33,419 nt of DNA from Bacillota bacterium (GTDB lineage Bacteria; Bacillota; SHA-98; UBA4971): contig JAAYRV010000078.1 in the NCBI GenBank assembly GCA_012518595.1, positions 1-33,419 of the forward strand, read 5' to 3'. Shown here piece by piece: positions 1,892 through 29,026 of the stretch (its first letter is position 1; every line of letters begins with the position of its first letter). The position numbers and the translations under genes are program-made. Under the pieces are notes generated by a model. The model was not told the DNA's origin, searched no databases, and saw only the letters and a list, made by a program, of their open reading frames with translations.

Positions 1892-3271
1892 ATGAATTAC
1901 CTTATCAAAGGTGGCATCGTAATAACTGAAAAAGGCGCGCTCCCTCAAGATGTGGCCATCGATAACCAACGAATATCCGCAGTAGGACGTGACCTGCCTG
2001 ATTCTCCCGGTAGAGTCACATTGGACGCTAAAGGGAAATATGTGCTTCCCGGTGTAATTGATGCTCATACCCATTTCGCGCTCCGTTCCCGCGGCACAAT
2101 AACAGCTGATGATTTTGCATCGGGGACAATGGCTGCAGCGTGCGGCGGAGTCACAACTGTCATTGATTTTGCGGATCAGATACCCGGCAAAAGCCTGGCA
2201 GACGCGGCTCAGGTACGCATTGACGAAGCAGAACCCCATGTGGCGACAGATTTTGCCTTACACATGACTATGACAAAAACCCCGGACAATCTTGACGGTG
2301 AACTCAGAGACCTCCTTGAGTTGGGAGTAAGCGCAGTTAAACTATTCACAACGTACAGGGCTGCAGGATACCTCCTTGAGAAGGATGATTTTATTCGGCT
2401 CTCAAAAGCCGCACACCGGGCAGGCCTTCTTGTGACAGTTCACGCAGAAGACAATGATCTTGTTGAAAATCTTGAAGCCCGAATGCAAGAAAAGGGTGAA
2501 ACCGCCCCTTCCTACCATGCGGCATCAAGACCTGCGAAAGCGGAAGCGTCGGCAATCCGGAATACTGCGTCTATCCTGGGTGAAGCAGGGGTGCCCGTCT
2601 ACTTCGTCCATGTATCCAGCGGCCCGGGGCTGGAAGCGGTCAGAGAGGCCAGAGGGAAAGGCTACTCAATCTATGCTGAAACCTCGCCTCATTACTTAAC
2701 ACTCACTTCTCACCTATACGCAGGGGATGACGCGAGAGAGTTCATCATGACTCCCCCGCTCCGAGACTCCTGCGACATAGACACTCTTTGGGACGGGGTT
2801 CTAAACGGTGAATTTCATGTTATCGCAACTGACCATTGCTCTTTTACACGTAAGCAAAAAGCCCAAGGGACGTCATGCTTTAATACTCTCCCCGGGATTC
2901 CCGGGGTTGAAACCTTACTTCCTCTGGTTCACTACGAGGGTGTAGTAAAGCGGGGCATGCCCCTTTCCGAACTGGCGCGAATGCTTTCGTTTTGCCCTGC
3001 GAAATTGTTCGGGCTCTATCCGCAAAAGGGCACAATAGCGCCAGGCGCAGACGCGGATATAGTCATTTTCGATCCAAATCTGCCAAAGACCATAACTGCT
3101 GACTCACAGCACTCTAAGGCAGATTACACACCGTATGAGGGCAGGACCGTACAAGGGTACCCCACTACTGTCCTTGTTCGTGGCAAAGTTGTATATGATA
3201 ACGGAGTTTTTCTCGGAGTTCCGGGAAGCGGCAGATTCATTGCTTCGAAGGGGCGTAAAAACCGAGATTAA
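1892..3271 (+). CDS. hydA: Dihydropyrimidinase / D-hydantoinase family amidohydrolase
   Basis: MNYLIKGGIVI..GKYVLPGVIDAHTHF..GVSAVKLFTTY..VHAEDNDL..HVSSGPGLEAV..ETSPHYL..ATDHCSF..GLYPQKGTIAPGADADIVIFDP; ATG 1892 preceded by AAAGGTGAG. Confidence 0.9.
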   Translation: MNYLIKGGIVITEKGALPQDVAIDNQRISAVGRDLPDSPGRVTLDAKGKYVLPGVIDAHTHFALRSRGTITADDFASGTMAAACGGVTTVIDFADQIPGKSLADAAQVRIDEAEPHVATDFALHMTMTKTPDNLDGELRDLLELGVSAVKLFTTYRAAGYLLEKDDFIRLSKAAHRAGLLVTVHAEDNDLVENLEARMQEKGETAPSYHAASRPAKAEASAIRNTASILGEAGVPVYFVHVSSGPGLEAVREARGKGYSIYAETSPHYLTLTSHLYAGDDAREFIMTPPLRDSCDIDTLWDGVLNGEFHVIATDHCSFTRKQKAQGTSCFNTLPGIPGVETLLPLVHYEGVVKRGMPLSELARMLSFCPAKLFGLYPQKGTIAPGADADIVIFDPNLPKTITADSQHSKADYTPYEGRTVQGYPTTVLVRGKVVYDNGVFLGVPGSGRFIASKGRKNRD

Positions 3272-3341
3272 CTATCAAACGCGTAACTCGAAAAACGCAT
3301 TGATAGGTTAACAATTCAATAATTACGAAGGGGGACGTTTT

Positions 3342-4556
3342 ATGAAATTTACAGACGAGCAAATGGCAAAAATCAGGGAAGCTTCAGAAAAGTATACAGA
3401 TGATATTGTCGCATTTCTCAGAGACCTTATTGAAATACCCAGTTTTAGTTCAGAAGAAGGAGACTGCATAAAGAGGATTAAGGAGGAAATGGAGAAGGTC
3501 GGGTTTGACGACGTGAAGATTGACGCCATAGGTAACGTCATTGGCACAATCGGAAACGGCCCGAGAAAGATCCTGTATGACTCCCACATTGACACAGTGG
3601 CTATCGCAGACCCAACTGCATGGGAGCATGATCCTTTCAAAGGTGCGATAAAAGACGGCATCATCTATGGACGCGGCGCTTCCGACAACAAGGCAGCGAT
3701 AGCGTGTATGGTTTACGCGGGAAAAATCATCAAAGAGCTTGGTCTTCTACCTGATGATATTACCCTTTATATCGCAGGAGTCGTTCAGGAAGAAGACTGT
3801 GACGGTTGGGCAGTGTACGAGATGATTACCACACAGGGAATCAAACCCGACTGCGTTCTGATAGGCGAATGCACCAACCTGGCAATCAACCGCGGCCATC
3901 GTGGACGTTGTGAAATCAAAGTCACCACTAAAGGAGTCTCCTGTCATGCAAGCGCTCCTGAGCGCGGCCTAAATGCAGTCTACAAAATGGTCCCGATCAT
4001 ACAAGGAATCGAGAAGCTTCAGGGCAATCTGAAAGACGATCCTTTCATAGGACCTGGCAGCATCGCTGTTACATCCATCGAGTGCAAGACCGGTTCACTA
4101 AACGTTGTGCCTGATGAGTGCACCATCTATATTGACAGACGGATGACCGTAGGCGAGACAACCGAGTCTTCCATAGAAGAGATCAAGGCTCTGCCAGGCG
4201 CTGAAGAAGCTGAAGTCAGCCTTCTCCAGTATGAAACACCGAGTTGGACCGGATATACGCCTGAGTGGGATAAGTACTTCCCCACATGGGTGCTAGAAGA
4301 AGATCATCCGGTGGTCCAGGCAGGAATGGATTGCGGCAAGGCCCTCTTTGGCGAGATGCCCCCGACAAGCAGATGGGTATTCTCAACTGACGGCATATCC
4401 ACCATGGGCAGACTGGGCATACCTACAATCGGATTTGGCCCTGCGGAAGAAAGGCACGCCCACTCCGTTGATGACCAGGTAAGGATTGATCATCTGACAA
4501 AATCGGCTATGTTCTACTCTTTGTTCCCTGCAGTGTACTCTAAGCGCGTTAAGTAA
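3342..4556 (+). CDS. ygeY: YgeY-type M20 family metallohydrolase (selenium-metabolism-linked hydrolase)
   Basis: LIEIPSFSSEEGD, DSHIDTVAIADPTAWEHDPFKGAIKDGIIYGRGASDNKA, VQEEDCDG, GECTNLAINRGHRGRCEI, FSTDGISTMGRLGIPTIGFGPAEERHAHSVDD. Confidence 0.9.
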   Translation: MKFTDEQMAKIREASEKYTDDIVAFLRDLIEIPSFSSEEGDCIKRIKEEMEKVGFDDVKIDAIGNVIGTIGNGPRKILYDSHIDTVAIADPTAWEHDPFKGAIKDGIIYGRGASDNKAAIACMVYAGKIIKELGLLPDDITLYIAGVVQEEDCDGWAVYEMITTQGIKPDCVLIGECTNLAINRGHRGRCEIKVTTKGVSCHASAPERGLNAVYKMVPIIQGIEKLQGNLKDDPFIGPGSIAVTSIECKTGSLNVVPDECTIYIDRRMTVGETTESSIEEIKALPGAEEAEVSLLQYETPSWTGYTPEWDKYFPTWVLEEDHPVVQAGMDCGKALFGEMPPTSRWVFSTDGISTMGRLGIPTIGFGPAEERHAHSVDDQVRIDHLTKSAMFYSLFPAVYSKRVK

Positions 4557-4682
4557 TACGGAGGCTACGAAGTCACAGACCCGGTAATTGAACGTCAGCA
4601 GTCGGTAGTCTGGGACGAGGCAGAAAACAGACTCCATGTAGCTAAAGCCATAATGGCATTGACGATGGGAGGTAGGTCGTAA
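4557..4682 (+). pseudogene. C-terminal remnant of an OTCase/YgeW-type transcarbamoylase
   Basis: In frame directly after the yge[45 protein letters not shown], matching the transcarbamoylase C-terminal pattern EVT(D/E)xVxExxxSVVxDxAENRxHxxKAxM; no start codon or upstream catalytic portion. Confidence 0.7.
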
Positions 4683-4729: not shown

Positions 4730-5269
4730 ATGGGTGATATGCCGGGCGCCGTTAATACAGGTACACCATCTTCCGTAAAGTCCACTCTTGAGGTGTCTAT
4801 GGAAGTAAATGGAGATACTGTACGAAGGGAGGTCCCGGCATCCCGCACTCTGATAGACTTTTTGCGGGATGACTTGGGCCTTACAGGTACAAAAGAAGGT
4901 TGTGGCAAGGGAGAATGCGGTGCTTGCACCGTCCTAGTTGACGGCAAGCCTGTAAACTCATGCTTAATGTTGGCTTATCAAGCAAACGGATGCAAGGTCA
5001 CGACTATCGAAGGCTTGGAAAGAAACGGAGAATTGCACCCTCTACAGGAAGCGTTCATGGAAGAAGGCGCAGTGCAATGCGGATTCTGCATACCGGGAAT
5101 GATTATGGCTGCCAAAGCCATACTGGATGCTAACCCTGAACCAACACGTGACGAGATTCGTCAGGGGATTTCAGGTAATATCTGTAGATGCACAGGCTAT
5201 GTCAAGATAATTGATGCGATTGAAGCTGCTGCAGAACGTAAGTGCAAGAGTTGCTCATGTGAGGAGTAG
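4730..5269 (+). CDS. Molybdenum hydroxylase (xanthine dehydrogenase family) 2Fe-2S subunit, set 1
   Basis: GCGKGECGACTVLVDGKPVNSCL and QCGFCIPGMIM...GNICRCTGYVKI double 2Fe-2S motifs. Confidence 0.95.
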   Translation: MGDMPGAVNTGTPSSVKSTLEVSMEVNGDTVRREVPASRTLIDFLRDDLGLTGTKEGCGKGECGACTVLVDGKPVNSCLMLAYQANGCKVTTIEGLERNGELHPLQEAFMEEGAVQCGFCIPGMIMAAKAILDANPEPTRDEIRQGISGNICRCTGYVKIIDAIEAAAERKCKSCSCEE

Positions 5270-8142: not shown

Positions 8143-9342
8143 ATGGTTGATTTATCATTGGAATTCTGTGGCGTGAAGTTCCCGAACCCATTCACCCTTG
8201 CTGCAGCGCCAACCACTGACTCTGCTGAGATGATAGCAAGAGCATTTGAAGCCGGTTGGGGCGGAGCAATCTTAAAGACAACATCAGTGGAAACAGAAGT
8301 AGTTGAACTTGTCTACCCGATGATGTCAGGTATAGACCTTGAAGACAAGAAACTCATGGGACTGCAGAATATCGACTTAATTTCCGAACGGCATATCGAC
8401 GAAGTTGAAAAAGACGTAAAAACCTTAAAGAAGGAATTCCCTGACAAAGTAGTGGCTGCCAGCATCATGGGGGCAAAGAAAGAGGACTGGCAGCAACTGG
8501 TGAGGCGCCTGGAAGCTGCCGGCGTGGATCTTATTGAGTGTAGCTTCTCCTGCCCGCACGGTATGCCTGAGCGTGGCATGGGTTCCACGATAGGACAAGA
8601 TCCTGAGCTTACAGAGCGTACAGCTCGCTGGGTAAAGGAAGCTGCCACAAGGGTGCCGATAGTCATCAAACTCACCCCGCAGATTGCTGATATCACCTCA
8701 GCAGCCGCGGCGGTAAAGAGATCAGGCGCTGACGGAGTATGCGCTATTAACACACTGAAAAGCATGATAGGAGTTGATCTCGACACATTCATCCCCTATC
8801 CCAACGTCGGTGGGTATTCCACATACGGCGGATACTCAGGCCCTGCCATCAAGCCTGTGACCTTGAGGTGTGTAGCTGAAATCGCCAAGTCAGTGGATAT
8901 TCCCATAGCTGCAGTAGGCGGAATCAGCACATGGAGCGACGCAGTGGAATTCCTCCTCCTCGGAGCCACCAACATTCAGCTCTGCACAGCTGTAATGCAT
9001 AACGGCTTCAGGATTATTGAGGACCTTATTGACGGCCTCAGTGTTTACCTCGAGGAAAAGGGTATGAATTCCGTTAAAGAGCTGGTTGGTAAGGCATTGC
9101 CGTACATTGTCGACCACTCCAAGCTATCGAGAGATTACCAAGTTGTCTCCTCTGTGAACCGTGAGACGTGCATCAAGTGCGATGTCTGCTACATTGCATG
9201 TATGGACGGAGCTCATCAAGCCATAGAGCTCGATGAGAACAGACTTCCCGTCATTGATGAAGATAAGTGTAAAGGCTGCGGAATGTGTGAAACAGTATGT
9301 CCTGTCGAGGAGTGCATAACTCTTAAACCAAGGGAGAGTTGA
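8143..9342 (+). CDS. preA: PreA-like dihydropyrimidine dehydrogenase catalytic subunit with C-terminal 2x[4Fe-4S] ferredoxin domain
   Basis: LSLEFCGVKFPNPFTLAAAPTTDS..GWGGAILKTTS..IECSFSCPHGMPERGMGSTIGQDPEL..IKLTPQIADI; C-terminal CIKCDVCYIAC and CKGCGMCETVCPVEEC. Confidence 0.9.
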   Translation: MVDLSLEFCGVKFPNPFTLAAAPTTDSAEMIARAFEAGWGGAILKTTSVETEVVELVYPMMSGIDLEDKKLMGLQNIDLISERHIDEVEKDVKTLKKEFPDKVVAASIMGAKKEDWQQLVRRLEAAGVDLIECSFSCPHGMPERGMGSTIGQDPELTERTARWVKEAATRVPIVIKLTPQIADITSAAAAVKRSGADGVCAINTLKSMIGVDLDTFIPYPNVGGYSTYGGYSGPAIKPVTLRCVAEIAKSVDIPIAAVGGISTWSDAVEFLLLGATNIQLCTAVMHNGFRIIEDLIDGLSVYLEEKGMNSVKELVGKALPYIVDHSKLSRDYQVVSSVNRETCIKCDVCYIACMDGAHQAIELDENRLPVIDEDKCKGCGMCETVCPVEECITLKPRES

Positions 9343-9344
9343 GT

Positions 9345-10217
9345 ATGACCAGACTCCATGTGGCAATTCCCACAAGCATTGACGAGACCCTTGGACTGCT
9401 TGAAAAATGGGGGCATGATGCTGCAGTAATCGCAGGTGGCACCGACCTTGTTGTCGAGCTGAAAGACAAGCTGAAATCCCCGAAAGCACTGATAGATATC
9501 GGACGTGTCCCTGAGGTCCGCGGAATAAGGGAGGCTGAGGGCAATCATGTGTGGATAGGAGCCATGTCCACACATGCAGAAATAGCTTCTTCCACCGTGG
9601 TCAAGGAGATCGCACCCATATTGGCAAAGGCCTGCGCTCAAGTGGGATCCCCTCAGATAAGGAATAGGGGCACCATAGGCGGGAATATGTCTACAGCATC
9701 ACCTGCAGGCGATACAATACCTGCACTATATGTCCTGGAAGCGTCTGTGGAAATCATAGGGCCCAGGGGTAAGCGAACCGTGCCTATAGAGTCGTTTTTC
9801 CAAGGCCCGAAGAAATCTGCATTAGCTCCTGATGAGATAGTCCTTGGGGTCAAGTTTCAGAAGTTGGGTAAAGAGTACGTTTCGTTCTTTAGGAAACTGG
9901 GACAACGAAAATCACTTGCAATATCCATAGTAAGCGTAGCGTTTGTCGGAAAATGCCAGAAACCCGGCCTCTTCACTGACGTTAGAGTTGCCCTTGGCTC
10001 GGTGGCACCGACAGTGGTTCGGGCACGCACAGTCGAAAACGCCATTCGCGAGAAGCAATTGGATCCGAAGACTGCCGAATACATCTCGAAGCTTGCATTT
10101 CGCGACTGTGTGCCTATAACCGATGTAAGAGGTTCTAAAGGTTATCGCGAGCAAATGGCATGCAATCTTCTATATGAAGGGTTACTCTCTTTGCTGTCAT
10201 GTTGCGAGGCTTGTTAG
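9345..10217 (+). CDS. Molybdenum hydroxylase FAD-binding subunit, set 1
   Basis: AAVIAGGTDLVVELKDKLKSPKALIDI..IGAMSTHAEIASS..KACAQVGSPQIRNRGTIGGNMSTASPAGDTIPALYVL. Confidence 0.93.
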   Translation: MTRLHVAIPTSIDETLGLLEKWGHDAAVIAGGTDLVVELKDKLKSPKALIDIGRVPEVRGIREAEGNHVWIGAMSTHAEIASSTVVKEIAPILAKACAQVGSPQIRNRGTIGGNMSTASPAGDTIPALYVLEASVEIIGPRGKRTVPIESFFQGPKKSALAPDEIVLGVKFQKLGKEYVSFFRKLGQRKSLAISIVSVAFVGKCQKPGLFTDVRVALGSVAPTVVRARTVENAIREKQLDPKTAEYISKLAFRDCVPITDVRGSKGYREQMACNLLYEGLLSLLSCCEAC

Positions 10218-10257
10218 AATTCTAAGGGGAGTATCAAGCTAAGGAGGTTCGGAAGAC

Positions 10258-10488
10258 GTGAAAATCAATGTATGTCTCTTCGGTCCAATGAAAAAATACG
10301 CAGATAAGGATAAATTCCAGCTGGAACTCGAAGAAGGCGCGACGATTACTGATCTTCTGGACCGCCTGAAAATCGAAGACAGAATCTACATTGTCGTCCT
10401 CATTAATGGTAGGCGAGCCTATGATGAAGATGAGCCTCTCTCTGACGGCGCCGAGGTGCTCATTATGGCTCCAACCGGCGGCGGTTAA
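10258..10488 (+). CDS. MoaD/ThiS-like sulfur-carrier protein ending in Gly-Gly-Gly
   Basis: 76-aa beta-grasp-like small protein MKINVCLFGPMKKYADKDKF..EEGATITDLLDRL..VVLINGRRAYDEDEPLSDGAEVLIMAPTGGG*; preceded by AAGGAGG. Confidence 0.85.
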   Translation: MKINVCLFGPMKKYADKDKFQLELEEGATITDLLDRLKIEDRIYIVVLINGRRAYDEDEPLSDGAEVLIMAPTGGG

Positions 10489-10542
10489 GAGAGAGGCTGA
10501 GGCTCCATACGGCTCTAACTAGATGAGGAGGGGGTAACACAA

Positions 10543-12825
10543 ATGACAAAAACCAAGTGGGTTGGTATGGACGTCACGCGGATTGATGCAAAGGATAAAG
10601 TCCGAGGCGCGCTAAAATATATGTCGGATCTTTCTTTGCCAAATATGATACACGGCGCAGTGCTAAGGAGTAAGCATCCTCATGCCCTGATAAAGAAAAT
10701 TGACACGAAACGCGCAAAAGAGCTGGACGGAGTGGTAACAGTCCTGACCCATGAGGACGTCCCCGGCTTAAACGGGTTTGGCATCGCCATCCCTGACCAA
10801 CCGGTGTTATGCGGGGACAAGGTGCGATACATGGGAGATGCTGTTGCGCTTGTAGGAGCGGAATCAAAGGAAACAGCAGAACGTGCCCTGGAATTAATAG
10901 AAGTTGAGTATGAGCCTCTGCCTCTTGTTTCAGACCCTGAGCAAGCAATGCTCGAGTCGTCCCCTCTCGTGCATGAGACCGGAAATATCCATAATCATGT
11001 CAAAATCGAACGAGGCGACGTGGAGGCAGCATTTAAAGAAGCCCATGTTGTAGTTGAAAATACCTACTCTACGCCCAGGCAGATGCATGCCTTCCTTGAA
11101 CCCGAAAGCGGCGTAGCTACTATAGACGAGGATAAGAACATCACTATTTGGTGCGGAGGACAACACCCGTACAGAGACCAGCTTCAAGTAGCACGGGCCC
11201 TCGGCATGAATCCAAGGAAAATCCGCATAGTCAACACGCCTGCCGGAGGAGCGTTCGGTGGTAAGGATGAGATTACCCTTCAAATATACCTTGCGCTTCT
11301 TGTGTTGCATACAGGTAGGCCGGCGAAAATCGTGATTTCGCGGGAAGAGTCAGTAGTTGCCGGGATGAAACGTCATCCCATGAAAATCTACATGAAAACT
11401 GCAGCTTCAGCCGACGGAACCATTCTTGCCAATCAAGCAAGGGTTGTCTCTGATACAGGCGCGTACGCGTCTCTCGGAGGCCCGGTTATCGGGTTTGCGA
11501 TAGAGCACTCCTGCGGCGCGTACAGAGTGGAAAATGTGGACCTGGAAGGTTTCTGCGTATACACAAATAACTGTGTGGCAGGAGCGTTTAGAGGATTCGG
11601 AGCGAACCAGGTCACTTTCGCAGTAGAGACTCAGCTTGACATGATCGCAGAGAAGCTCGGCATGGGTAAACTGGACATTCGCAAGAAAAACGCCTTGCGA
11701 AAAGGCGACATAGCTGCGTTAGGACATAAGATGGAAGCTTCAGTCGGATTGATGCGTACACTGGAAGCAGCAGAAAACTCAAGGCTGTGGCAGATTAGGG
11801 AAGAGCTTAAGGCAAAGCCCAGTGCTCCCCATAAGAAGCGTGGTATCGGTATAGCCTGCGCATTCCAAGGATGCGGCCTTGGAAAAGGGCTTCCGGACTA
11901 CGGCGCTGCCACAATTGAGCTCTTACCTAACGGACAGTTTGCCATAGGTATCAGTTGTCCTGAAATAGGACAGGGCAATACCACTGCTTTCGTGCAAATA
12001 GCAGCAGACTACATAAAGTGTTCCATTGATGACATAGTAATGTTATCAGGCGATACAGGGCATACCCTGGACTCCGGGACATCCACGGCTTCACGTTCCA
12101 TCTATACCGGTGGAAACGCACTGAAGCTCGCTGCCGAAAACCTGCATGATGCCATATCGACTGTGGCGGCTGAGATCCTTTCCGTACCTGGAAATGATAT
12201 AGATATCAGGTATGAATCCGCAGTCTCAAAATCCTGTCCGGAAAAGACGGTTTCGTTCAAGACAATTGCGGAGTTCGTGAAGAAGAAAGGTAAAACAATA
12301 AAGAGTGAAGGCCACTTCCTATGGCCGGTTTCCGAGACTGAGCTTGAAGGATATGTCGGCATACCTCACCTGCTCTATAGCTATATCACTCAGATAGCTT
12401 TAGTTGAGGTCAACACGTTGACAGGTGAGACCGAAGTCGTCGAAGCAGTATCAGTCCCTGATCCGGGTAAAGCCATAAACCCACAAGGCGTGGAAGGCCA
12501 ATCTGAAGGCGGAGTCGTCATGGGCATGGGCTATGCCTTAACTGAGGATACAATTATTGAGGAAGGGATAACCCTTACTCGGAACTTCTCCACCTATATA
12601 CTTCCTACCAGCTTAGACATGCCCCACAAAATCGACACAATCATCGCTGAAGAGCTCGAGCCTTCGGGCCCGTTCGGCGCAAAAGGTATAGGTGAAGCAG
12701 TGTGTGTCCCGATAAGCCCTGCTATTACCAATGCCATTTACGATGCTGTCGGAGTATGGATGAAGCAAATTCCTGCCACAGCTGAACGAGTGTATACTGC
12801 ACTTAAGAATAAAGAGGTATCCTAG
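10543..12825 (+). CDS. Xanthine dehydrogenase family molybdopterin-binding subunit, set 1
   Basis: DAKDKVRGALKYMSDL..MIHGAVLRSKHPHA..GAFGGKDEI..AGAFRGFGANQV..GQGNTTAFVQIAAD..GPFGAKGIGEAVCVPISPAITNAIYDAVG. Confidence 0.93.
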   Translation: MTKTKWVGMDVTRIDAKDKVRGALKYMSDLSLPNMIHGAVLRSKHPHALIKKIDTKRAKELDGVVTVLTHEDVPGLNGFGIAIPDQPVLCGDKVRYMGDAVALVGAESKETAERALELIEVEYEPLPLVSDPEQAMLESSPLVHETGNIHNHVKIERGDVEAAFKEAHVVVENTYSTPRQMHAFLEPESGVATIDEDKNITIWCGGQHPYRDQLQVARALGMNPRKIRIVNTPAGGAFGGKDEITLQIYLALLVLHTGRPAKIVISREESVVAGMKRHPMKIYMKTAASADGTILANQARVVSDTGAYASLGGPVIGFAIEHSCGAYRVENVDLEGFCVYTNNCVAGAFRGFGANQVTFAVETQLDMIAEKLGMGKLDIRKKNALRKGDIAALGHKMEASVGLMRTLEAAENSRLWQIREELKAKPSAPHKKRGIGIACAFQGCGLGKGLPDYGAATIELLPNGQFAIGISCPEIGQGNTTAFVQIAADYIKCSIDDIVMLSGDTGHTLDSGTSTASRSIYTGGNALKLAAENLHDAISTVAAEILSVPGNDIDIRYESAVSKSCPEKTVSFKTIAEFVKKKGKTIKSEGHFLWPVSETELEGYVGIPHLLYSYITQIALVEVNTLTGETEVVEAVSVPDPGKAINPQGVEGQSEGGVVMGMGYALTEDTIIEEGITLTRNFSTYILPTSLDMPHKIDTIIAEELEPSGPFGAKGIGEAVCVPISPAITNAIYDAVGVWMKQIPATAERVYTALKNKEVS

Positions 12826-12857
12826 CAAATGGCAGGCGAATGGAGGCGATGAACAGT

Positions 12858-15182
12858 ATGAGCTCGTTTACCGTAGTAAACCAACCAATAAGCCGGATAG
12901 ACGCCATTGAAAAAGTAACAGGCAGAGCTAGATTTACAGACGATCTCGCCTTTGACGGAATGCTCTACGGACGAGTTCTAAGGGCAAAATATCCACATGC
13001 CAAGATCCTTGAACTCGATACCCGTAAAGCGGAAGAGCTCCCCGGTGTGGCCGCAGTCATTACCTACGCCGATATTCCGGGAGCGCAGGCAATCGGACCT
13101 GTCCGATCCGACATGCCCATTTTCGTGTCCACACGGACAATGTACTTAGGTGATGCAGTTGCCATGGTCGTGGCGGAAACGCCTGAGATCGCAAATCAAG
13201 CGCTCGCCCTAATACGCGTAGAATACGAAGAGCTTCCAACCTTATTTGACGTTGAGGAAGCCGTGTCTGAAGACGCGCTCCAGCTTCACAAAGACTGTCC
13301 CGGTAATATTGTGAACCACTACCCCCTCAGAAAAGGTAACGTAGAAAAGGGGTTCAAAGAGTCAGACGTCATTCTTGAACGGACCTACACTACACAGTTG
13401 ATTGAACATGCATACATTGAACCTGAAGCAGCTATCGCTGTACCGGGAGCAGCTGACGGCACTGTCACTGTGTACGGATCCATCCAGAATCCTTTTACCG
13501 CCAGGCGGCACGTGGCTCAAGTCCTCGGAGTAAGCCTCAATAGGGTAAGAATCATACAGTGCGCTATGGGAGGTTCCTTCGGAGGTAAAGACGACGTAGT
13601 GTCTGCAATCTGCGCAAGGGCAGCTGTAGCAGCGGTGAAGACCAGGCGGCCTGTGAAGATAGTCTACACCAGAGAAGAGTCGCTTATTGAAAGCTACAAA
13701 CGTCACCCATATGTGATGAAGTACAAAGTCGGAGCGACCCGTGACGGCAAACTCCAAGCCATGGAGATATACATGTTGGCAGACGGGGGCCCCTACTCTT
13801 CCATGACGCCTTTTGTAACATGGCGTTCGGTGGTTCAGGCAACAGGTCCGTATGAGGTTCCCAACGTCAAGACAGACATATACGGAGTCTTCACAAACAA
13901 CACATATACCGGCGCAATGAGAGGCTTCGGAAGCCCACAGATTATATTCGCGCAAGAATCCCTTATGGACGAGCTTGCAGAAGAGTTGGACATGGATCCT
14001 TTGGAATTCCGTCTTGCGAACGCGTTCAAACAAGGCTCCGTAACCGCCAGCGGACAGGTCCTGGATGAACATACGGTAAGCCTTATCAATGTGATCGAAA
14101 AAGCGACGGAAGCCATAGGATACTCGGAAAAGCGAAAGGCTTATGCAGAAAACAAAGGATCGAAAGGGAAAGTCCGTGGCGTAGGTTTTGCTGCAAGTCA
14201 CCGTGGAGTGAGCCTGGGTGCGGAAGGAGTGGACGCTGCAGGAGCGCTGGTGTCAGTACAACCTGACGGAAGCGTATATCTGCATTCCGGACTCGCAGAA
14301 AACGGACAAGGGCTTAAGACTATCTTTTCACAAATCGCAGCTGAAGAGCTTGGTTGCAGGTTTGAAGATATCATGTTTATGGATACGGATACATCTGTCA
14401 TACCTGACAGCGGAGCTACAGTCGCCTCCCGTAGCACAACAATGGGCGGGAGCGCTGTCCGGAACGCTGCGAAAAAAGTAAAAGAGGTGCTCCTCGGGGT
14501 CGCAGCTGAACTTCTTAATGCACCGCACGAAGAGATAACAGCAGCCGGCGGCAAAATATATGTAAAGGAAGACCCTGCAAGGTGCGTGGAATTTAAGGAC
14601 GTAGCCAGGGCTGCTTATGGCAAAGGCCAACTAATGGCTGCCATCGGTTGGTTCCAGGCGCCAAAGGTCTCATGGGACGAGGAAACAGGTCAAGGCAAAG
14701 CATACTTCACGTATGTTTACGGGTGCCAGGCAGCTGAAGTTGAAGTGGATTGCGATACCGGACAAGTCAAGGTTCTAAAAGTGGCAGCAGCGCATGACGT
14801 AGGCCGTGCCATTAACCCCGCTACCGTGAAAGGCCAGATATACGGCGGCGTCACAATGGGAATGGGTTATGGCATCTTGGAAGAAGTAGAACTTCAAGAC
14901 GGTGTCACTAAGACCCGAAACCTTGACGAGTATCTCATTCCTACGTCTATGGACGTGCCGGAAATTGTTCCGATCATAGTGGAAAACCCTGACTCATACG
15001 GGCCCTATGGTGCAAAAACAATAGGTGAGCCTACTTGCGAATTGCTGGCTCCTGCAATAGCTAACGCAGTCTATAACGCGTGCGGAAAGAGAATTCGTAA
15101 GTTGCCGCTGGACCTTGAGCGAGTGCTCCTAGGTTATTCGCTTAGAGCAGCCCGAGGCAAGAGGGGAAGTGAACAGGCATGA
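12858..15182 (+). CDS. Xanthine dehydrogenase family molybdopterin-binding subunit, set 2
   Basis: DAIEKVTGRARFTDDLAFDGMLYGRVLRAKYPHA..GGSFGGKDDVVSA..GAMRGFGSPQI..ENGQGLKTIFSQIAAEELG..GPYGAKTIGEPTCELLAPAIANAVYNACG; start 12858 chosen from GGAGG spacing (ORF opens at 12840). Confidence 0.93.
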   Translation: MSSFTVVNQPISRIDAIEKVTGRARFTDDLAFDGMLYGRVLRAKYPHAKILELDTRKAEELPGVAAVITYADIPGAQAIGPVRSDMPIFVSTRTMYLGDAVAMVVAETPEIANQALALIRVEYEELPTLFDVEEAVSEDALQLHKDCPGNIVNHYPLRKGNVEKGFKESDVILERTYTTQLIEHAYIEPEAAIAVPGAADGTVTVYGSIQNPFTARRHVAQVLGVSLNRVRIIQCAMGGSFGGKDDVVSAICARAAVAAVKTRRPVKIVYTREESLIESYKRHPYVMKYKVGATRDGKLQAMEIYMLADGGPYSSMTPFVTWRSVVQATGPYEVPNVKTDIYGVFTNNTYTGAMRGFGSPQIIFAQESLMDELAEELDMDPLEFRLANAFKQGSVTASGQVLDEHTVSLINVIEKATEAIGYSEKRKAYAENKGSKGKVRGVGFAASHRGVSLGAEGVDAAGALVSVQPDGSVYLHSGLAENGQGLKTIFSQIAAEELGCRFEDIMFMDTDTSVIPDSGATVASRSTTMGGSAVRNAAKKVKEVLLGVAAELLNAPHEEITAAGGKIYVKEDPARCVEFKDVARAAYGKGQLMAAIGWFQAPKVSWDEETGQGKAYFTYVYGCQAAEVEVDCDTGQVKVLKVAAAHDVGRAINPATVKGQIYGGVTMGMGYGILEEVELQDGVTKTRNLDEYLIPTSMDVPEIVPIIVENPDSYGPYGAKTIGEPTCELLAPAIANAVYNACGKRIRKLPLDLERVLLGYSLRAARGKRGSEQA

Positions 15183-16051
15183 CCTTTGGATTCATTCGAC
15201 CTGGAACAATCCGTGAAGCAATAGAATTCCTCAGCGAACATAAGGACAATTCAAGGATAGTCGCAGGCGCAACCGACGTTATGGTTCAGATGAGGAGCGC
15301 GAAACCCGCTGAAGAGAAGCCTCTTTGGCTGGTGGATATCACAAGTATCCCTAAGCTGTCCTATGTTAACCTTGAGAACGGCATAGTAAGAATAGGAGCT
15401 ATGACCACCCATAGAGACGTCGCGAGAAGCGCTGTTATCCATGATGTAGCGCCTTTCCTTGCTGACGCATGTCTAAGTGTGGGTTCGCCTCAAATCAGGA
15501 CACGAGGAACAATAGGCGGAAACATTGTGAATGCGTCACCTGCGGCAGACTCTCTCCCGCCGCTTACCGCCCTTTCCGCAAGGTTGCGACTAATCAGCAG
15601 GAAAGGCTCGCGGGATGTAGCGCTTGAGGAGTTTTTCAAGGGTCCCTATAAGACAATAATAGAACCTGATGAAATACTTGAGGAAGTATACTTTCAGGCG
15701 CCTGAACAATCTTCCTGCTGTGCCTTTTTGAAGCTTGGCAGAAGAGAGTCCCTTGCCATAGCTCGCCTTAGCGTAGCCGTGCTCCTTGATGTAGACGAGT
15801 CAGGCAAGATATCAAAGGCTTCAATAGCTCCGGGAGCATGCCTTCCTATGCCCGGTAGGATAACACCTGCAGAAGAAGCTCTCACAGGGAAAACCCCTGA
15901 TGAAGAAACAGTCAATCTGGCCGCTCAGGAAGTGGGCGCAGAGATGATAAGAGTCAGCGGAGTGAGATGGTCCACAGAGTATAAGAAGCCTGTTGCTTGC
16001 GCCCTCACAAAGCGGGCTATTTGGAAGGCGCTGGGGGTGGATGAAGATTGA
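15179..16051 (+). CDS. Molybdenum hydroxylase FAD-binding subunit, set 2
   Basis: SRIVAGATDVMVQMR..ADACLSVGSPQIRTRGTIGGNIVNASPAADSLPPLTAL; ATGA overlap with the upstream stop. Confidence 0.93.
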   Translation: MTFGFIRPGTIREAIEFLSEHKDNSRIVAGATDVMVQMRSAKPAEEKPLWLVDITSIPKLSYVNLENGIVRIGAMTTHRDVARSAVIHDVAPFLADACLSVGSPQIRTRGTIGGNIVNASPAADSLPPLTALSARLRLISRKGSRDVALEEFFKGPYKTIIEPDEILEEVYFQAPEQSSCCAFLKLGRRESLAIARLSVAVLLDVDESGKISKASIAPGACLPMPGRITPAEEALTGKTPDEETVNLAAQEVGAEMIRVSGVRWSTEYKKPVACALTKRAIWKALGVDED

Positions 16052-16545
16052 AAAAAGTTGAACCGGAACACAAGAAACTAATAACTTTTACTGTAAATGG
16101 CGATGATGTTGAGGTCGAAATATCCTCAAGCGACAGACTCATTGACGTGCTCAGGAATAAGCTGGAGCTCACAGGGACAAAAGAAGGATGCGGTATAGGT
16201 GAATGCGGAGCATGTACCGTGCTCATGGATGGAAAGCCTGTTAACTCATGTCTTGTGCCTGCATTCCAAGTAGAAGGCAGCGAAATAGAAACCGTGGAAG
16301 GTCTGGATAAATCCGGCAAACTCCATCCACTTCAAGAAGCGTTCGTGGAACATACGGCAATCCAATGCGGTTTTTGCACCCCTGGCATGCTCATGTCCGC
16401 TTTGGCTCTTCTCAGAGAAAATCCTAAGCCTACCAGGGAGGAAGTAGCCCGTGCGATCTCAGGAAACCTTTGCAGATGCACGGGATATCAGCAGATAATT
16501 GAAGCAATAGAGGATGCCGCAACAAAATTGAAAGCTTTGGAATAA
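16048..16545 (+). CDS. Molybdenum hydroxylase 2Fe-2S subunit, set 2
   Basis: GCGIGECGACTVLMDGKPVNSCL and QCGFCTPGMLM..GNLCRCTGYQQI; TTG start overlapping the upstream stop. Confidence 0.93.
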   Translation: MKKVEPEHKKLITFTVNGDDVEVEISSSDRLIDVLRNKLELTGTKEGCGIGECGACTVLMDGKPVNSCLVPAFQVEGSEIETVEGLDKSGKLHPLQEAFVEHTAIQCGFCTPGMLMSALALLRENPKPTREEVARAISGNLCRCTGYQQIIEAIEDAATKLKALE

Positions 16546-16558
16546 GGAGGGATACTTG

Positions 16559-17887
16559 ATGCTAATTGTGGGAAACGGCTTGCTAATCACGCTGGACGCT
16601 GATGGCAAGGTAATCCAAGACGGTGCCGTGGCCATAGAAGACGGGATCATCAGTAAAATAGGTGATACCGCAGAGATCAAGGCACGCTATCCGGACGCGG
16701 AATTCATTGACGCGCAAGGAAAGGTGATCATGCCTGGGATGATCAACACCCACATGCATCTCTACAGTACTTTTGCCAGAGGGATGGCGTCAAAAGATGC
16801 GCCACCCCGGACGTTCGTTCAGATTCTTGAGAGACTTTGGTGGAGATTAGATAAGACCCTGGGCCCTGAAGACATCTACATAAGCTCGCTCGTACCTATC
16901 ATTGATTGCATCCGCTTCGGAGTCACGACAATCCTGGATCACCATGCAAGTGCAATGTCAATTCCGGGAAGTCTGGATGAATGCGCAAAAGCAGTCCAAG
17001 AAGCAGGAATCCGTGCATGTCTTGCTTATGAGGTCTCAGACAGGGACGGCATGGAGATCAGGGATCAGGGTATCGAAGAGAACGTGAGGTTTATCAAGAG
17101 ATGTCGGGAAGAAGCGAGTCCATACCTGGCAGCTTCATTCGGACTCCACGCGCAAATGACCCTATCTGACGATACGCTGAAAAAGTGTAGAGAAGCAGCG
17201 GAAGGCCTTGATGTAGGTTTTCACGTCCATGTGGCTGAAGGACCGGAAGATCTTGAAGACTCTCTAAAGAGATCCGGCAAGCGAGTGGTTGAAAGACTCG
17301 ACTCCTTCGGAATCCTGGGCCCGAAAACCATAGCGTGTCACTGCGTGCATATAAACGAGGCTGAAATGGATATCCTTAAGGACCGTGACGTGAACGTTGT
17401 GCATAATCCCGAATCTAATATGGGTAATGCCGTCGGAGTCGCACCTGTCCTAAAAATGATGGAAAAAGGCGTAAGAGTGGGCCTCGGCACTGATGGGTAT
17501 ACATCGGACATGTTTGAAGCAATCAAAGTCGCTAACATGCTCCATAAACTAAACGAAAAGAATCCAAGCGCAGCATGGGGCGAAGTGCCTACCATGGTAT
17601 TTGCGAACAATCGCGATATTGCAAAGCGCATCTTAGGTATGAATATAGGCATACTGGAACCGGGTGCCCTAGGCGACGTAATTGTTGTGGATTATGACCC
17701 ATGGACTCCTTTGACATCGGAGAATTTCTACAGTCATATTCTGTTCGGCATGTCAGGAGGACTGGTAGATACGACTATTGTGGCAGGACGCGTTCTAATG
17801 CGTGACCGCGAACTTACTACTGTTGATTCAGAACGAATCCTCAGCCGTTCGCGGGAGCTTGCCAAAGAAGTGTGGACACGATTCTAG
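16559..17887 (+). CDS. ssnA: SsnA-like aminohydrolase (guanine deaminase/ATZ-TRZ-type amidohydrolase)
   Basis: GKVIMPGMINTHMHLYSTFARGMASKDAPPRTFVQILERLWWRLDKTL..GVTTILDHHAS..ACHCVHINEAEMDIL..NPESNMGNAVGVAP..GLGTDGYTSDMFEAIKVANMLHK; ATG after AGGAGG. Confidence 0.85.
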   Translation: MLIVGNGLLITLDADGKVIQDGAVAIEDGIISKIGDTAEIKARYPDAEFIDAQGKVIMPGMINTHMHLYSTFARGMASKDAPPRTFVQILERLWWRLDKTLGPEDIYISSLVPIIDCIRFGVTTILDHHASAMSIPGSLDECAKAVQEAGIRACLAYEVSDRDGMEIRDQGIEENVRFIKRCREEASPYLAASFGLHAQMTLSDDTLKKCREAAEGLDVGFHVHVAEGPEDLEDSLKRSGKRVVERLDSFGILGPKTIACHCVHINEAEMDILKDRDVNVVHNPESNMGNAVGVAPVLKMMEKGVRVGLGTDGYTSDMFEAIKVANMLHKLNEKNPSAAWGEVPTMVFANNRDIAKRILGMNIGILEPGALGDVIVVDYDPWTPLTSENFYSHILFGMSGGLVDTTIVAGRVLMRDRELTTVDSERILSRSRELAKEVWTRF

Positions 17888-17924
17888 CAATTTAGTAAAC
17901 AGAAGTAAACGGAGGGAAAATTTA

Positions 17925-18965
17925 ATGCTCAACTGGGCGAGAAATCAAAAACCATATGATAATATCCTACAGGCTGCCGGCTTGACGCCGATGGTCAGAA
18001 TAAACAGGGTCGCAAAAGACGTTGACGCCACAATCTATGGAAAAGTAGAATACTTCAACCCAAGCGGAAGCTTAAAGGACAGAATCCTATGGCGTATGGT
18101 GGAAGCCGCCGAGGAACGCGGGGAACTGAAACCTGGAATGACTCTTATCGAGGGAACGACAGGAAATACCGGTATTGCTACCGCCTGCGTAGGCGCAGTA
18201 AAGGGATATAAGGTCATCATTGTCATGCCTGAGGGCATGAGTGATGAGCGCAAGAAGACCATTCGCGCATACGGCGCAGAGCTTGTTTTCACAGAAGGCG
18301 CAGAAAGCGATGTAGATATAGTCCTTGACAAGGTTGAAGAGATAAAAGCAAAGAATCCGGGTAAAATGTGGGAAGTGGGCCAGTTCTCAAATGTTGACAA
18401 CGTCAAGGCGCACTACATGACTACAGGCCCTGAAATCTGGGAACAGACTGAAGGTAAAGTTGATGCCTTTGTCGCCTCCCAAGGAACTGCCGGCACTGTA
18501 AGCGGAGTAGGCAAATATCTGAAGGAGCAAAATCCTGATGTCATGATATTCGCAGTTGAACCTGCTGAATGCCCAATCCTCTCAGGTGGCGAGTGGGGAA
18601 GCCATCAAATCGAAGGCATAGGCGACGGGTTTATTCCGGATGTGCTGAATCTCGATGCTATTGACGGAATCATTCAGACCACATCAGAAGAGTCAATAGA
18701 AATGGCCCAAAGGCTGTCACGTGAAGAGGGCATTTTCTGCGGCATATCCTCAGGCTGCAACGTGGCAGCTGTGCTCAAGCTGGCTCGCAAATATCCGAAG
18801 CTCAAGAAAATCGTGACAATGATTAACGATAACGGACTGCGCTACTTCACGACTGCGCTTTGCGGCGAGAAGGTGGAAGTCGAAATCCCTGACCGCGACC
18901 ACCCAATCAGTGACGAGGATAAGGAGAGACTCAGGAAGAAGAACTTAATCGTAATCCCCTCATAA
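17925..18965 (+). CDS. Cysteine synthase-family fold-type II PLP enzyme (substrate uncertain)
   Basis: EYFNPSGSLKDRILWRMVEAAEERGELKPGMTLIEGTTGNTGIATACVGAVKGYKVIIVMPEGMSDERKKTIRAYGAELV..SQGTAGTVSGVGKYL..GISSGCNVAAVL; ATG after GGAGGG. Confidence 0.85.
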   Translation: MLNWARNQKPYDNILQAAGLTPMVRINRVAKDVDATIYGKVEYFNPSGSLKDRILWRMVEAAEERGELKPGMTLIEGTTGNTGIATACVGAVKGYKVIIVMPEGMSDERKKTIRAYGAELVFTEGAESDVDIVLDKVEEIKAKNPGKMWEVGQFSNVDNVKAHYMTTGPEIWEQTEGKVDAFVASQGTAGTVSGVGKYLKEQNPDVMIFAVEPAECPILSGGEWGSHQIEGIGDGFIPDVLNLDAIDGIIQTTSEESIEMAQRLSREEGIFCGISSGCNVAAVLKLARKYPKLKKIVTMINDNGLRYFTTALCGEKVEVEIPDRDHPISDEDKERLRKKNLIVIPS

Positions 18966-26026: not shown

Positions 26027-26710
26027 CTAAAGTGACTGCTGGATTTGTGCCATAACCCGTTCAAAAATGTCACTCCCTGATGACATGCAATTTGCCACAT
26101 CGCCTTCTATGCACTTGACAAAAGACGCATCTTTGATCGAAGGCAAATTAACCCTTACATTGAAATACGCGCCTCTCATCCCGGCCCAAGCGCTAAGACA
26201 GGCAACTGCCACATCTGAAAGCGCACTTTTCATCCCATACTCTACCATAGCCTCTGTAAGACGCAATACTTCCAGTGCACACGTGACTACTTCAGCCGGC
26301 ACACGACACGCATCTTTAAGCGCATCTTGGATAGCAAGAGACCTGGCTTGCTTCTCCTCTTCAGTGCTCTTAGGCAACTTATAAGCGGTCATTACCTTAT
26401 CATAAGCTGCCGAATCCTCGTTGGCAAGATCCAAGAAACGCGCTTGGAGATGGTTAGCAGTGTTTACCATATCGAGCATACGTTGTTTCAGGGCTTGATT
26501 CTCGCACTGAGTGTCACTATCTTCTCCATCGCGTTTTCCTGACGTCTTAGCCTGTACCCGGGCAGCGGTTAAAGAGCCAACCATGCCTACCAAGGCAGAT
26601 GAAAGGCCTACTATTAAAGCGGACACACTTCCCCCTCCCGGAGTGGGAGACCCTTCAGCGACGGCTTGGATAAACTCAGATACCGTTAATTCCCCAAATT
26701 TGACAGTCAA
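26027..26710 (-). CDS. fchA: Cyclodeaminase/cyclohydrolase family protein (formimidoyl-THF cyclodeaminase / methenyl-THF cyclohydrolase)
   Basis: LTVSEFIQAVAEGSPTPGGGSVSALIVGLSSALVGMVGSLTA..MVNTANHLQARFLDLANEDSAAYDKVMTAYKLPK. Confidence 0.9.
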   Translation of the reverse strand: MTVKFGELTVSEFIQAVAEGSPTPGGGSVSALIVGLSSALVGMVGSLTAARVQAKTSGKRDGEDSDTQCENQALKQRMLDMVNTANHLQARFLDLANEDSAAYDKVMTAYKLPKSTEEEKQARSLAIQDALKDACRVPAEVVTCALEVLRLTEAMVEYGMKSALSDVAVACLSAWAGMRGAYFNVRVNLPSIKDASFVKCIEGDVANCMSSGSDIFERVMAQIQQSL

Positions 26711-28032
26711 GACACAATTCGCCTCCCTTCGCTTACAACAAGCCTTCCTTCTTTGATTACTTTGTCCACAATATTCGTGCCTGGTTTGTACGGAATCTTC
26801 AGGTGTGTGTCAGCATCTATAACAACCATATCCGCAAGCTTCCCTATCTCGAGACTTCCCACCTGGTTTCCCCGCATTAACCCATGTGCAGCATTGATAG
26901 TGCTTGCGCATATAATTTCCGCCGGGTGTAGCTTCATTCCAAGGGCAGCTACGTTCATGACAAACTGCATAGACAGGGTAGGACTGGTGCCCGGATTAAA
27001 ATCGGTAGCCAAAGCTACAGGGCAGCCAGCCGAGATGAACGCTCTGGCATCTGCGTATCGCCCCAGCCCGAGAGTGAACGAAGTCGCCGGAAGAAGCGTC
27101 GCTGTCACCCCTGCCTCCGCCATTTTACGAATGCCTTCTTCTGAAGCGTACAGCAAATGTTCTGCAGAGACGGCTCGGATTTCCGCTGCCAACTCAGCTC
27201 CACCTAAGGAAGCCATTTCATCTGCATGAATCCTGGGAAGAAGGCCTAAAGCAAGTCCTGCCTCCAATATCCTTCTGGATTGCCGGACTGAAAACACTCC
27301 TTCTTCACAGAACACGTCGCAAAACTCTGCCAGGCCCTCCTCTTTGACCGCGGGAAGCATGTCATCTATCACATGCCGCACATATCCTTCCGTATCTCCG
27401 GCAAATTCAGGCGGCACAGCATGAGCGCCCATGAACGTGCTAACCACATCAATCGGGTGAAGCTTGTCTAATTCCCGTATGACGCGAAGAGTTTTCAGTT
27501 CCTCATCTACGGATAACCCGTACCCGCTTTTGATTTCTACGGTAGTCGTTCCGTGGCACATCATTGTGTCCAGATATGCGAGACCTAAGTCCACAAGATG
27601 GGAATGAGTGGCATTGCGTGTGGCTCTGACTGTAGAGAGAATTCCACCGCCGGCTGATAATATCTGAAGGTAGGTCTTCCCTTCAGCCCTTTGAATGAAC
27701 TCTTTTTCTCTGGAGCCTGCAAAAACCAGATGGGTGTGGGAATCCACAAATCCGGGCAAGACCACCATACCTGTAGCGTCTATTACTTCTGCGTCTGGCA
27801 CCGGCTCAACTCTTCTCCTAACCTCATGGGTTTCTCCTACTGCTACAATACGTCCGTTAAACGCAGCTACGCTCCCACCTGAGATTATCGATAGATCCCT
27901 CATGGAAGAGCCGATACGCGGCCCGGCTGCTCCGCCTTTAGATGGATCAGCTGCAAGAGTAATAAGTTCGGACGCGTTCTCAACCAGCAAATCAGCGCGA
28001 ATACCCGAACCTCCTCTATTCATGAATATCAT
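26707..28032 (-). CDS. hutI: Imidazolonepropionase-like amidohydrolase
   Basis: MVVLPGFVDSHTHLVFAGSREKEFIQRAEGKTYLQILSAGGGILSTVRATR..EIKSGYGLSVDEELKTLRVI..IHADEMASLGGAELAAE..ATDFNPGTSPTLSMQFVMNVAAL. Confidence 0.9.
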   Translation of the reverse strand: MIFMNRGGSGIRADLLVENASELITLAADPSKGGAAGPRIGSSMRDLSIISGGSVAAFNGRIVAVGETHEVRRRVEPVPDAEVIDATGMVVLPGFVDSHTHLVFAGSREKEFIQRAEGKTYLQILSAGGGILSTVRATRNATHSHLVDLGLAYLDTMMCHGTTTVEIKSGYGLSVDEELKTLRVIRELDKLHPIDVVSTFMGAHAVPPEFAGDTEGYVRHVIDDMLPAVKEEGLAEFCDVFCEEGVFSVRQSRRILEAGLALGLLPRIHADEMASLGGAELAAEIRAVSAEHLLYASEEGIRKMAEAGVTATLLPATSFTLGLGRYADARAFISAGCPVALATDFNPGTSPTLSMQFVMNVAALGMKLHPAEIICASTINAAHGLMRGNQVGSLEIGKLADMVVIDADTHLKIPYKPGTNIVDKVIKEGRLVVSEGRRIVS

Positions 28033-28077
28033 TAACCCCCTTTGTCGGGAGACCGGTCACCGTATTTCAACCAGGCT

Positions 28078-28980
28078 CTATTCGCCCCATATTTTAGCTT
28101 CTAACACCTGTTCCCTGGAGAAGTCCTCAAAGCGGAGGTAATGCTCGGCTGCATCCAAGAGAGCGTCCATAGGAGCAAGGCCTATAAGCTCACTACCGAC
28201 AACAGACACGCCGTAGCGTTCAGCTTCTGTCTTCACCAAGTTAAAAACCACATGAATAGGGGTCTTCTTGAAATTCGTGAGGTTCATGGAGACTTGAGCC
28301 AAATTCCTGTCATCCAGCATGATGCCAAGGGCTTTCACATACATCAAGCCGCCGCTGCTTGCTCGAACCCGCCGAGCTATCTTCTTTGCAATAGAAACAT
28401 CAGGCGTGCTGAGATTAATATTGTAAGCAACCAGATAATTACGGGCTCCTATGACTGTAGCGCCTGCAGTAGGATGCATAACAGGCTCGCCGAAGTCAGG
28501 ATGCCTCGCCGGGAGACTAATCTCCTTCTTGAGACCTTCATATTCTCCTCTCCGGATGTTGGCGAGGTTTCGTCGGTCTTCACGAGTAGCTGCTTCTTCA
28601 TAAAGATATACCGGAACATGAAGCTTCTCTGCGACTTCTTCGCCCAAGGATCGTGCCAGGTCTACGCAGTCATCCATAGTGACTCCACTCACCGGCACAA
28701 AAGGAACGACATCTGTAGCTCCGATACGTGGATGCTCTCCTTGGTGCTTCTCCATATCTATGAGTTCAGCAGCACGTGAAATTGCCCTAAACGCTGCAGA
28801 TTTTACTGCGATAGGTTCACCGGCAAAAGTCAGGACAGACCGATTATGGTTTACGTCAGACGTCTGATTCAGTAGTCTTACTCCCGGAACGCTTTTGACT
28901 GCATCTGCAATTTCCTGTACTACCCCAGGCCTTCGTCCTTCACTAAAATTAGGGACACACTCTACAATTCTTGTTTTCAT
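28078..28980 (-). CDS. ftcD: Glutamate formimidoyltransferase-like protein
   Basis: MKTRIVECVPNFSEGRRPGVVQEIADAVKSVPGVRLLNQTSDVNHNRSVLTFAG..HQGEHPRIGATDVVPFVPVSGVTM..DFGEPVMHPTAGATVIGARNYLVAYNINL. Confidence 0.92.
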   Translation of the reverse strand: MKTRIVECVPNFSEGRRPGVVQEIADAVKSVPGVRLLNQTSDVNHNRSVLTFAGEPIAVKSAAFRAISRAAELIDMEKHQGEHPRIGATDVVPFVPVSGVTMDDCVDLARSLGEEVAEKLHVPVYLYEEAATREDRRNLANIRRGEYEGLKKEISLPARHPDFGEPVMHPTAGATVIGARNYLVAYNINLSTPDVSIAKKIARRVRASSGGLMYVKALGIMLDDRNLAQVSMNLTNFKKTPIHVVFNLVKTEAERYGVSVVGSELIGLAPMDALLDAAEHYLRFEDFSREQVLEAKIWGE

Positions 28981-29026
28981 AGGATCTGCTCTTACCTCCT
29001 GTACCTCCTGCATGCTATCTACGGCC

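Follow-up and report, generated by a model that had tools for sequence, protein, structure and literature searches.

In the reductive uric-acid pathway, YgeW catalyses the phosphorolysis of one ureido group of 2,3-diureidopropionate, and the carbamoyl phosphate thus formed goes to carbamate kinase and supports ATP formation (PMC12507026). Which ureido group the enzyme attacks is disputed (PMC12990295). A variant of this system is described in C. difficile, where UacY has replaced both YgeW and YqeA, and a PreA-type reductase is found instead of YgfK (PMC12507026). Another transcarbamoylase, the oxamic transcarbamylase of E. coli, consists of three subunits, AllF, AllG, and AllH (PMC11326118). 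For ornithine carbamoyltransferase (OTC), the ornithine-binding motif DxxxSMG and the roles of the motifs have been defined (PMC4581275).

The window analysed here is a stretch of 33,419 nucleotides from a Bacillota bacterium (contig JAAYRV010000078.1 of assembly GCA_012518595.1), whose draft genome, G000, comprises 322 contigs and is 91.7% complete. It is very likely that the feature at positions 4557–4682 of the forward strand derives from a transcarbamoylase gene, from which a short-range deletion of ~950 bp took away the leader and the initial ~290 codons and left the 3′ end. The loss removes the step that normally feeds the neighbouring carbamate kinase. The feature is an ordinary gene relic, a product of gene decay, of modest interest because the gene was lost more than once and a kinase was orphaned. 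It offers a clean case of the repeated loss of one energy-yielding step, with retention of the other genes of the cluster, among them that of the kinase using the product of this step.

The uric-acid-type cluster in the window

The genes around the relic, all on the forward strand, begin with an intact carbamate kinase of the arcC/yqeA type (872–1807; TIGR00746, 440 bits, cut-off 358). It is followed by a hyuA-type dihydropyrimidinase/hydantoinase (1904–3271; TIGR02033, 435.6 bits, cut-off 393) and by ygeY, which encodes an M20 hydrolase and forms the intact left flank (3342–4556; TIGR03526, 538.6 bits, cut-off 321.5). The intact right flank is a xanthine dehydrogenase (XDH)-type Fe-S subunit (4730–5269) recognized by homology. 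Further downstream lie a PreA-type dihydropyrimidine dehydrogenase subunit, which corresponds to UacX of the reductive urate pathway (8143–9342; NF006183, 546.5 bits, cut-off 335), and SsnA, whose gene serves as a marker for the reductive uric-acid cluster (16556–17887; TIGR03314, 626 bits, cut-off 455). SsnA, PreA, HyuA, YgeY, and ArcC thus exceed curated cut-offs, and the XDH subunits are assigned by homology, with scores below the equivalog cut-offs. This is the gene set of the reductive uric-acid pathway, which the cluster resembles. YgeX (diaminopropionate ammonia-lyase) is absent from the cluster, and the gene at 17922–18965 exceeds the cysK cut-off instead. The cysteine-synthase-like PLP enzyme that it encodes adjoins SsnA, the usual site of YgeX in uric-acid clusters. 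The region 9339–16545 contains two XDH-type sets, with two Mo and two FAD subunits, and two Fe-S subunits if the one at 4730 is counted. A second YgeY-family hydrolase, which exceeds the PRK13004 cut-off and is ~40% identical to that of the window, is encoded on another contig of the window genome (C96, L118:281–1471). On the minus strand, at 26027–29013, there are genes for imidazolonepropionase, glutamate formiminotransferase, and a cyclohydrolase/cyclodeaminase-like protein, a set of the histidine-degradation type.

The cluster shares with the C. difficile variant the lack of YgeW and the presence of the PreA-type reductase. It differs from that variant in having an intact carbamate kinase, and among the genes of the window cluster none resembling a D-aminoacylase was noticed. 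Two such genes occur elsewhere in the genome and have counterparts in species that retain the transcarbamoylase. A UacY-type replacement was considered and rejected: matches to PF07969 are found in all 13 genomes of the family comparison, including those with the intact enzyme. To call the window cluster a complete uric-acid pathway would be a wrong annotation for this species.

The transcarbamoylase tail and the lost enzyme

The 41-codon frame at 4557–4682 begins directly 3′ of the ygeY stop codon TAA (4554–4556) and stays open in the ygeY frame. The preliminary description spoke of a relic fused to ygeY, which is incorrect, since the in-frame stop separates the two. Its reading of the peptide as a transcarbamoylase C-terminus devoid of a start turned out to be sound. 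There is no start codon (the first ATG is internal and late in the frame), and residues 3–41 correspond to residues 291–329 of the protein (329 aa) encoded by the intact gene of G002, a genome of the same genus. The suggested profile comparison gives a match to the C-terminal part of the Asp/Orn-binding domain (Pfam OTCace, PF00185, profile positions 124–156 of 157) with an E-value of 2.1e-10 and 41.3 bits, above the curated cut-off of 29.4. OTC chains in the PDB are matched with E-values down to 5e-11, and the identity to the tail of the syntenic intact G002 gene is 89% over 38 aa. Against plasmids, the peptide gives ordinary matches only, with 67% identity among the matches listed. The open frame alone is weak evidence, because ~65% of simulated neutral copies with an equal number of changes also stay open; homology and synteny carry the case. 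The carbamoyl-phosphate (CP) motifs SxRT, HPxQ, and HxLP, present in the intact relatives, are all located upstream of the retained part. With all of them gone, no enzyme can be made from the relic.

At the deletion junction (4554–4566, forward strand), the ygeY stop TAA is followed by TAC and then by GGAGGCTACG of the old gene. The sequence ACAG, which occurs on both sides of the junction site in the intact relative, possibly served as a 4-bp microhomology at the deletion. The distance from the ygeY stop to the xdh start is 173 bp in the window vs. 1126 bp in G002; the window retains the last 39 codons of the gene, and ~950 bp are missing. The left breakpoint lies just after the ygeY stop and the right one just after the HCLP motif. 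The segment 4620–4729, covering the end of the relic and the xdh leader, shows an interspecies similarity above that of the four-fold sites of the neighbouring genes.

The gene was then compared among relatives, ygeY having been searched for in 40 of them, with 13 genomes forming the family comparison. In G002, whose ygeY is 93% identical, an intact transcarbamoylase gene encoding 329 aa separates ygeY from the xdh Fe-S subunit. It starts 90 bp past the ygeY stop and is preceded by the ribosome-binding-like sequence AAGGAGG. Of the six sister-genus genomes, five (G007, G008, G009, G011, and G012) have the same arrangement, with enzymes 78–79% identical to that of G002; in the remaining one, G010, a more distant transcarbamoylase adjoins a ygeY that is itself distant. 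The relatives thus possess a syntenic intact gene whose body and start are missing in the window. The interval between ygeY and xdh, which the preliminary description had interpreted as the scar of a carbamoyltransferase deletion, is indeed whole in these relatives, and in other species it is scarred or free of the gene. Two more genomes of the genus, G001 and G005, have kept the carbamate kinase, and neither a close ygeY homologue (best E-values 1e-6 and 2e-10, respectively) nor a ygeY cluster was found in them. In G005, argF was not found.

The preliminary assignment of the lost protein as "YgeW/OTC-type" holds for the fold. The intact gene, however, scores below both NCBIfam cut-offs: 239.4 and 226.5 bits for YgeW (TIGR03316, cut-off 500) and 275.8 and 280.5 bits for OTC (TIGR00658), the latter narrowly under the cut-off of 280.85. 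OTC models give the top scores for both the relic and the intact gene, and the C-terminus DEAENRLH is typical of OTC. However, the DxxxSMG motif of OTC is absent, its place being taken by YPKSWGALM in the intact relatives, and a separate argF is present in the window genome. With YgeW, the intact relatives share the CP-binding motifs, YPKSW, and a proline-rich loop of the knotted class, SYMKPMSVPQ, which aligns with SYGKPLSVPQ of YgeW (SYxKPxSVPQ). The AlphaFold model of the intact enzyme has a pLDDT of 47.7, too low to show the knot. The neighbourhood, with HyuA, YgeY, carbamate kinase, SsnA, and XDH, is also that of YgeW. Unlike YgeW, the intact protein has 329 rather than ~396 aa and is devoid of the N- and C-terminal extensions, and of this protein the window has the tail only. 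The description that best suits the lost enzyme is that of a short YgeW-like transcarbamoylase, and the relatives point to an uncharacterised subfamily of such enzymes. By analogy with YgeW in the reductive uric-acid pathway, we infer that the putative substrate would be the product of HyuA, in which the enzyme would phosphorolyse a ureido group, feeding carbamoyl phosphate to the adjacent carbamate kinase.

Recurrent loss of the gene in the genus

Three further genomes of the genus have a damaged or empty interval. In G006, the same tail begins 15 nt past the ygeY stop and is in frame with ygeY. G004 has a shorter tail, out of frame with ygeY, which is a twice-deleted scar. In both, GCGGACAG from the old gene follows the stop after an equally short interval; they hence have a common junction, unlike that of the window. 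In G003, there is no tail at all, and the gene is lost completely. Since the G004 and G006 scars have another junction and G003 has lost the gene entirely, the loss of the transcarbamoylase in the genus is recurrent.

The loss in G000 is best explained as separate from those in G004, G006, and G003 and later than the divergence of the species, as suggested by the junctions, the trees of the flanking genes, and the distribution of relic differences over codon positions. It is also possible, if rather unlikely, that G000, G004, and G006 inherited a single ancestral deletion, after which G000 lost another 9 bp and G004 underwent a second deletion. Such a course would account for the agreement of the G000 and G006 breakpoints within about 10 bp and for the location of the 9-bp difference between ACAG repeats. 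The rpoB tree, which differs by outgroup, joins G000 with G004 and G006 when rooted on G005. The trees of the flanking genes (ygeY and xdhS+mobA, rooted on G003), however, pair G000 with the intact G002 (100/100 each). Moreover, over the 40 shared codons, the G000 and G006 relics differ at 6, 1, and 14 sites at codon positions 1, 2, and 3, i.e., at 7 of 80 first and second positions, whereas the divergence at the four-fold sites of neighbouring genes is 0.38 for the same pair. Such a bias among codon positions would not be seen in an old neutral relic and therefore speaks against a single old deletion. The argF tree did not resolve the relationships within the genus, and a marker tree for fixing the number of losses was abandoned, as the far outgroup makes the root of the genus unstable.

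In addition to the separate late losses that we favour, one may ask whether selection acts on the relic because it is still in use, either as the xdh operon's leader RNA or as a short tail that read-through adds to YgeY. This seems quite improbable. The relic and leader are more alike between species than four-fold sites are (G002 and G004 have 1 difference in 63 nt), and the relic is in the ygeY frame in both G000 and G006. Between the G004 and G006 relics, there is 1 difference in the 42 first and second positions and there are 5 in the 21 third positions; given their common scar, such a bias would not be expected of a neutral relic, the numbers being small. On the other hand, the relic has no start codon, is out of the ygeY frame in G004, is missing in G003, and in G006 has lost the conserved Trp and His to substitution. 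A search for a structured leader RNA gave a fold z-score of -1.15 and no Rfam match, and no promoter or terminator was found inside the relic on the forward strand. There is just as slim a chance that repeated deletions spare the 3′ end because the surviving DNA is regulatory (the xdh leader) or serves as a read-through tail of YgeY.

That a collapsed or chimeric contig conceals an intact gene is extremely improbable: the window does come from a draft genome, but the junction is set 4.5 kb into a contig of 33 kb, the relic has amino-acid changes of its own, and the independent assemblies of G004 and G006 are scarred at the same place with other junctions. A full gene in relatives had been regarded beforehand as a sign of misassembly; it is not, because scars with differing junctions occur in several independent assemblies. 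Several of the genomes compared for scars are likewise separately deposited metagenome-assembled Bacillota/Clostridia records, which makes an assembly error in any single one less likely.

The carbamate kinase and remaining sources of carbamoyl phosphate

All 13 genomes of the family have one arcC each, the copy in G003 being cut by a contig end, and the carbamate kinase of the window is the only one found in its genome. The other single-chain transcarbamoylases of this genome are ArgF and PyrB only, and no other YgeW-like gene was found in it. An intact copy of the lost gene may reside on a contig missing from the 91.7%-complete assembly.

As in the allFGHK set of E. coli, the window genome has allF, allG, and probably allH side by side, on another of its contigs (C265, L120:8269–12130), and their products could supply carbamoyl phosphate. 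AllF exceeds the FdrA cut-off, AllG is recognized by Pfam PF06545, and AllH is assigned by position and length only. Unlike in E. coli, there is no allK of its own next to these genes, nor any other carbamate kinase gene beside them. Next to allFGH, the same contig carries genes for a PucR/CdaR-type regulator and a purine/uracil-type permease, and it has a fragment of an XDH large subunit at its end. AllFGH is also found in G002 and in most of the sister genus, and is absent in G003. The idea that it was a replacement permitting the loss was rejected, since it also occurs in species with the intact transcarbamoylase and is missing in G003.

With AllFGH and ArgF present and no other YgeW-like gene, it is plausible, as proposed earlier, that ArcC obtains its carbamoyl phosphate from elsewhere. 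AllFGH or ArgF are possible remaining partners of the carbamate kinase, AllFGH being a likely one. After the loss, the sole carbamate kinase would be retained for carbamoyl phosphate from one of these sources, and this is probably why it was kept.

In G004, a true YgeW scoring 765 bits is encoded elsewhere in the genome (contig C123, L117:4395–5591). It lies about 0.8 kb from an integrase-like gene (2626–3582) and near a type I restriction-modification gene, and it may be a horizontally acquired replacement for the lost transcarbamoylase.
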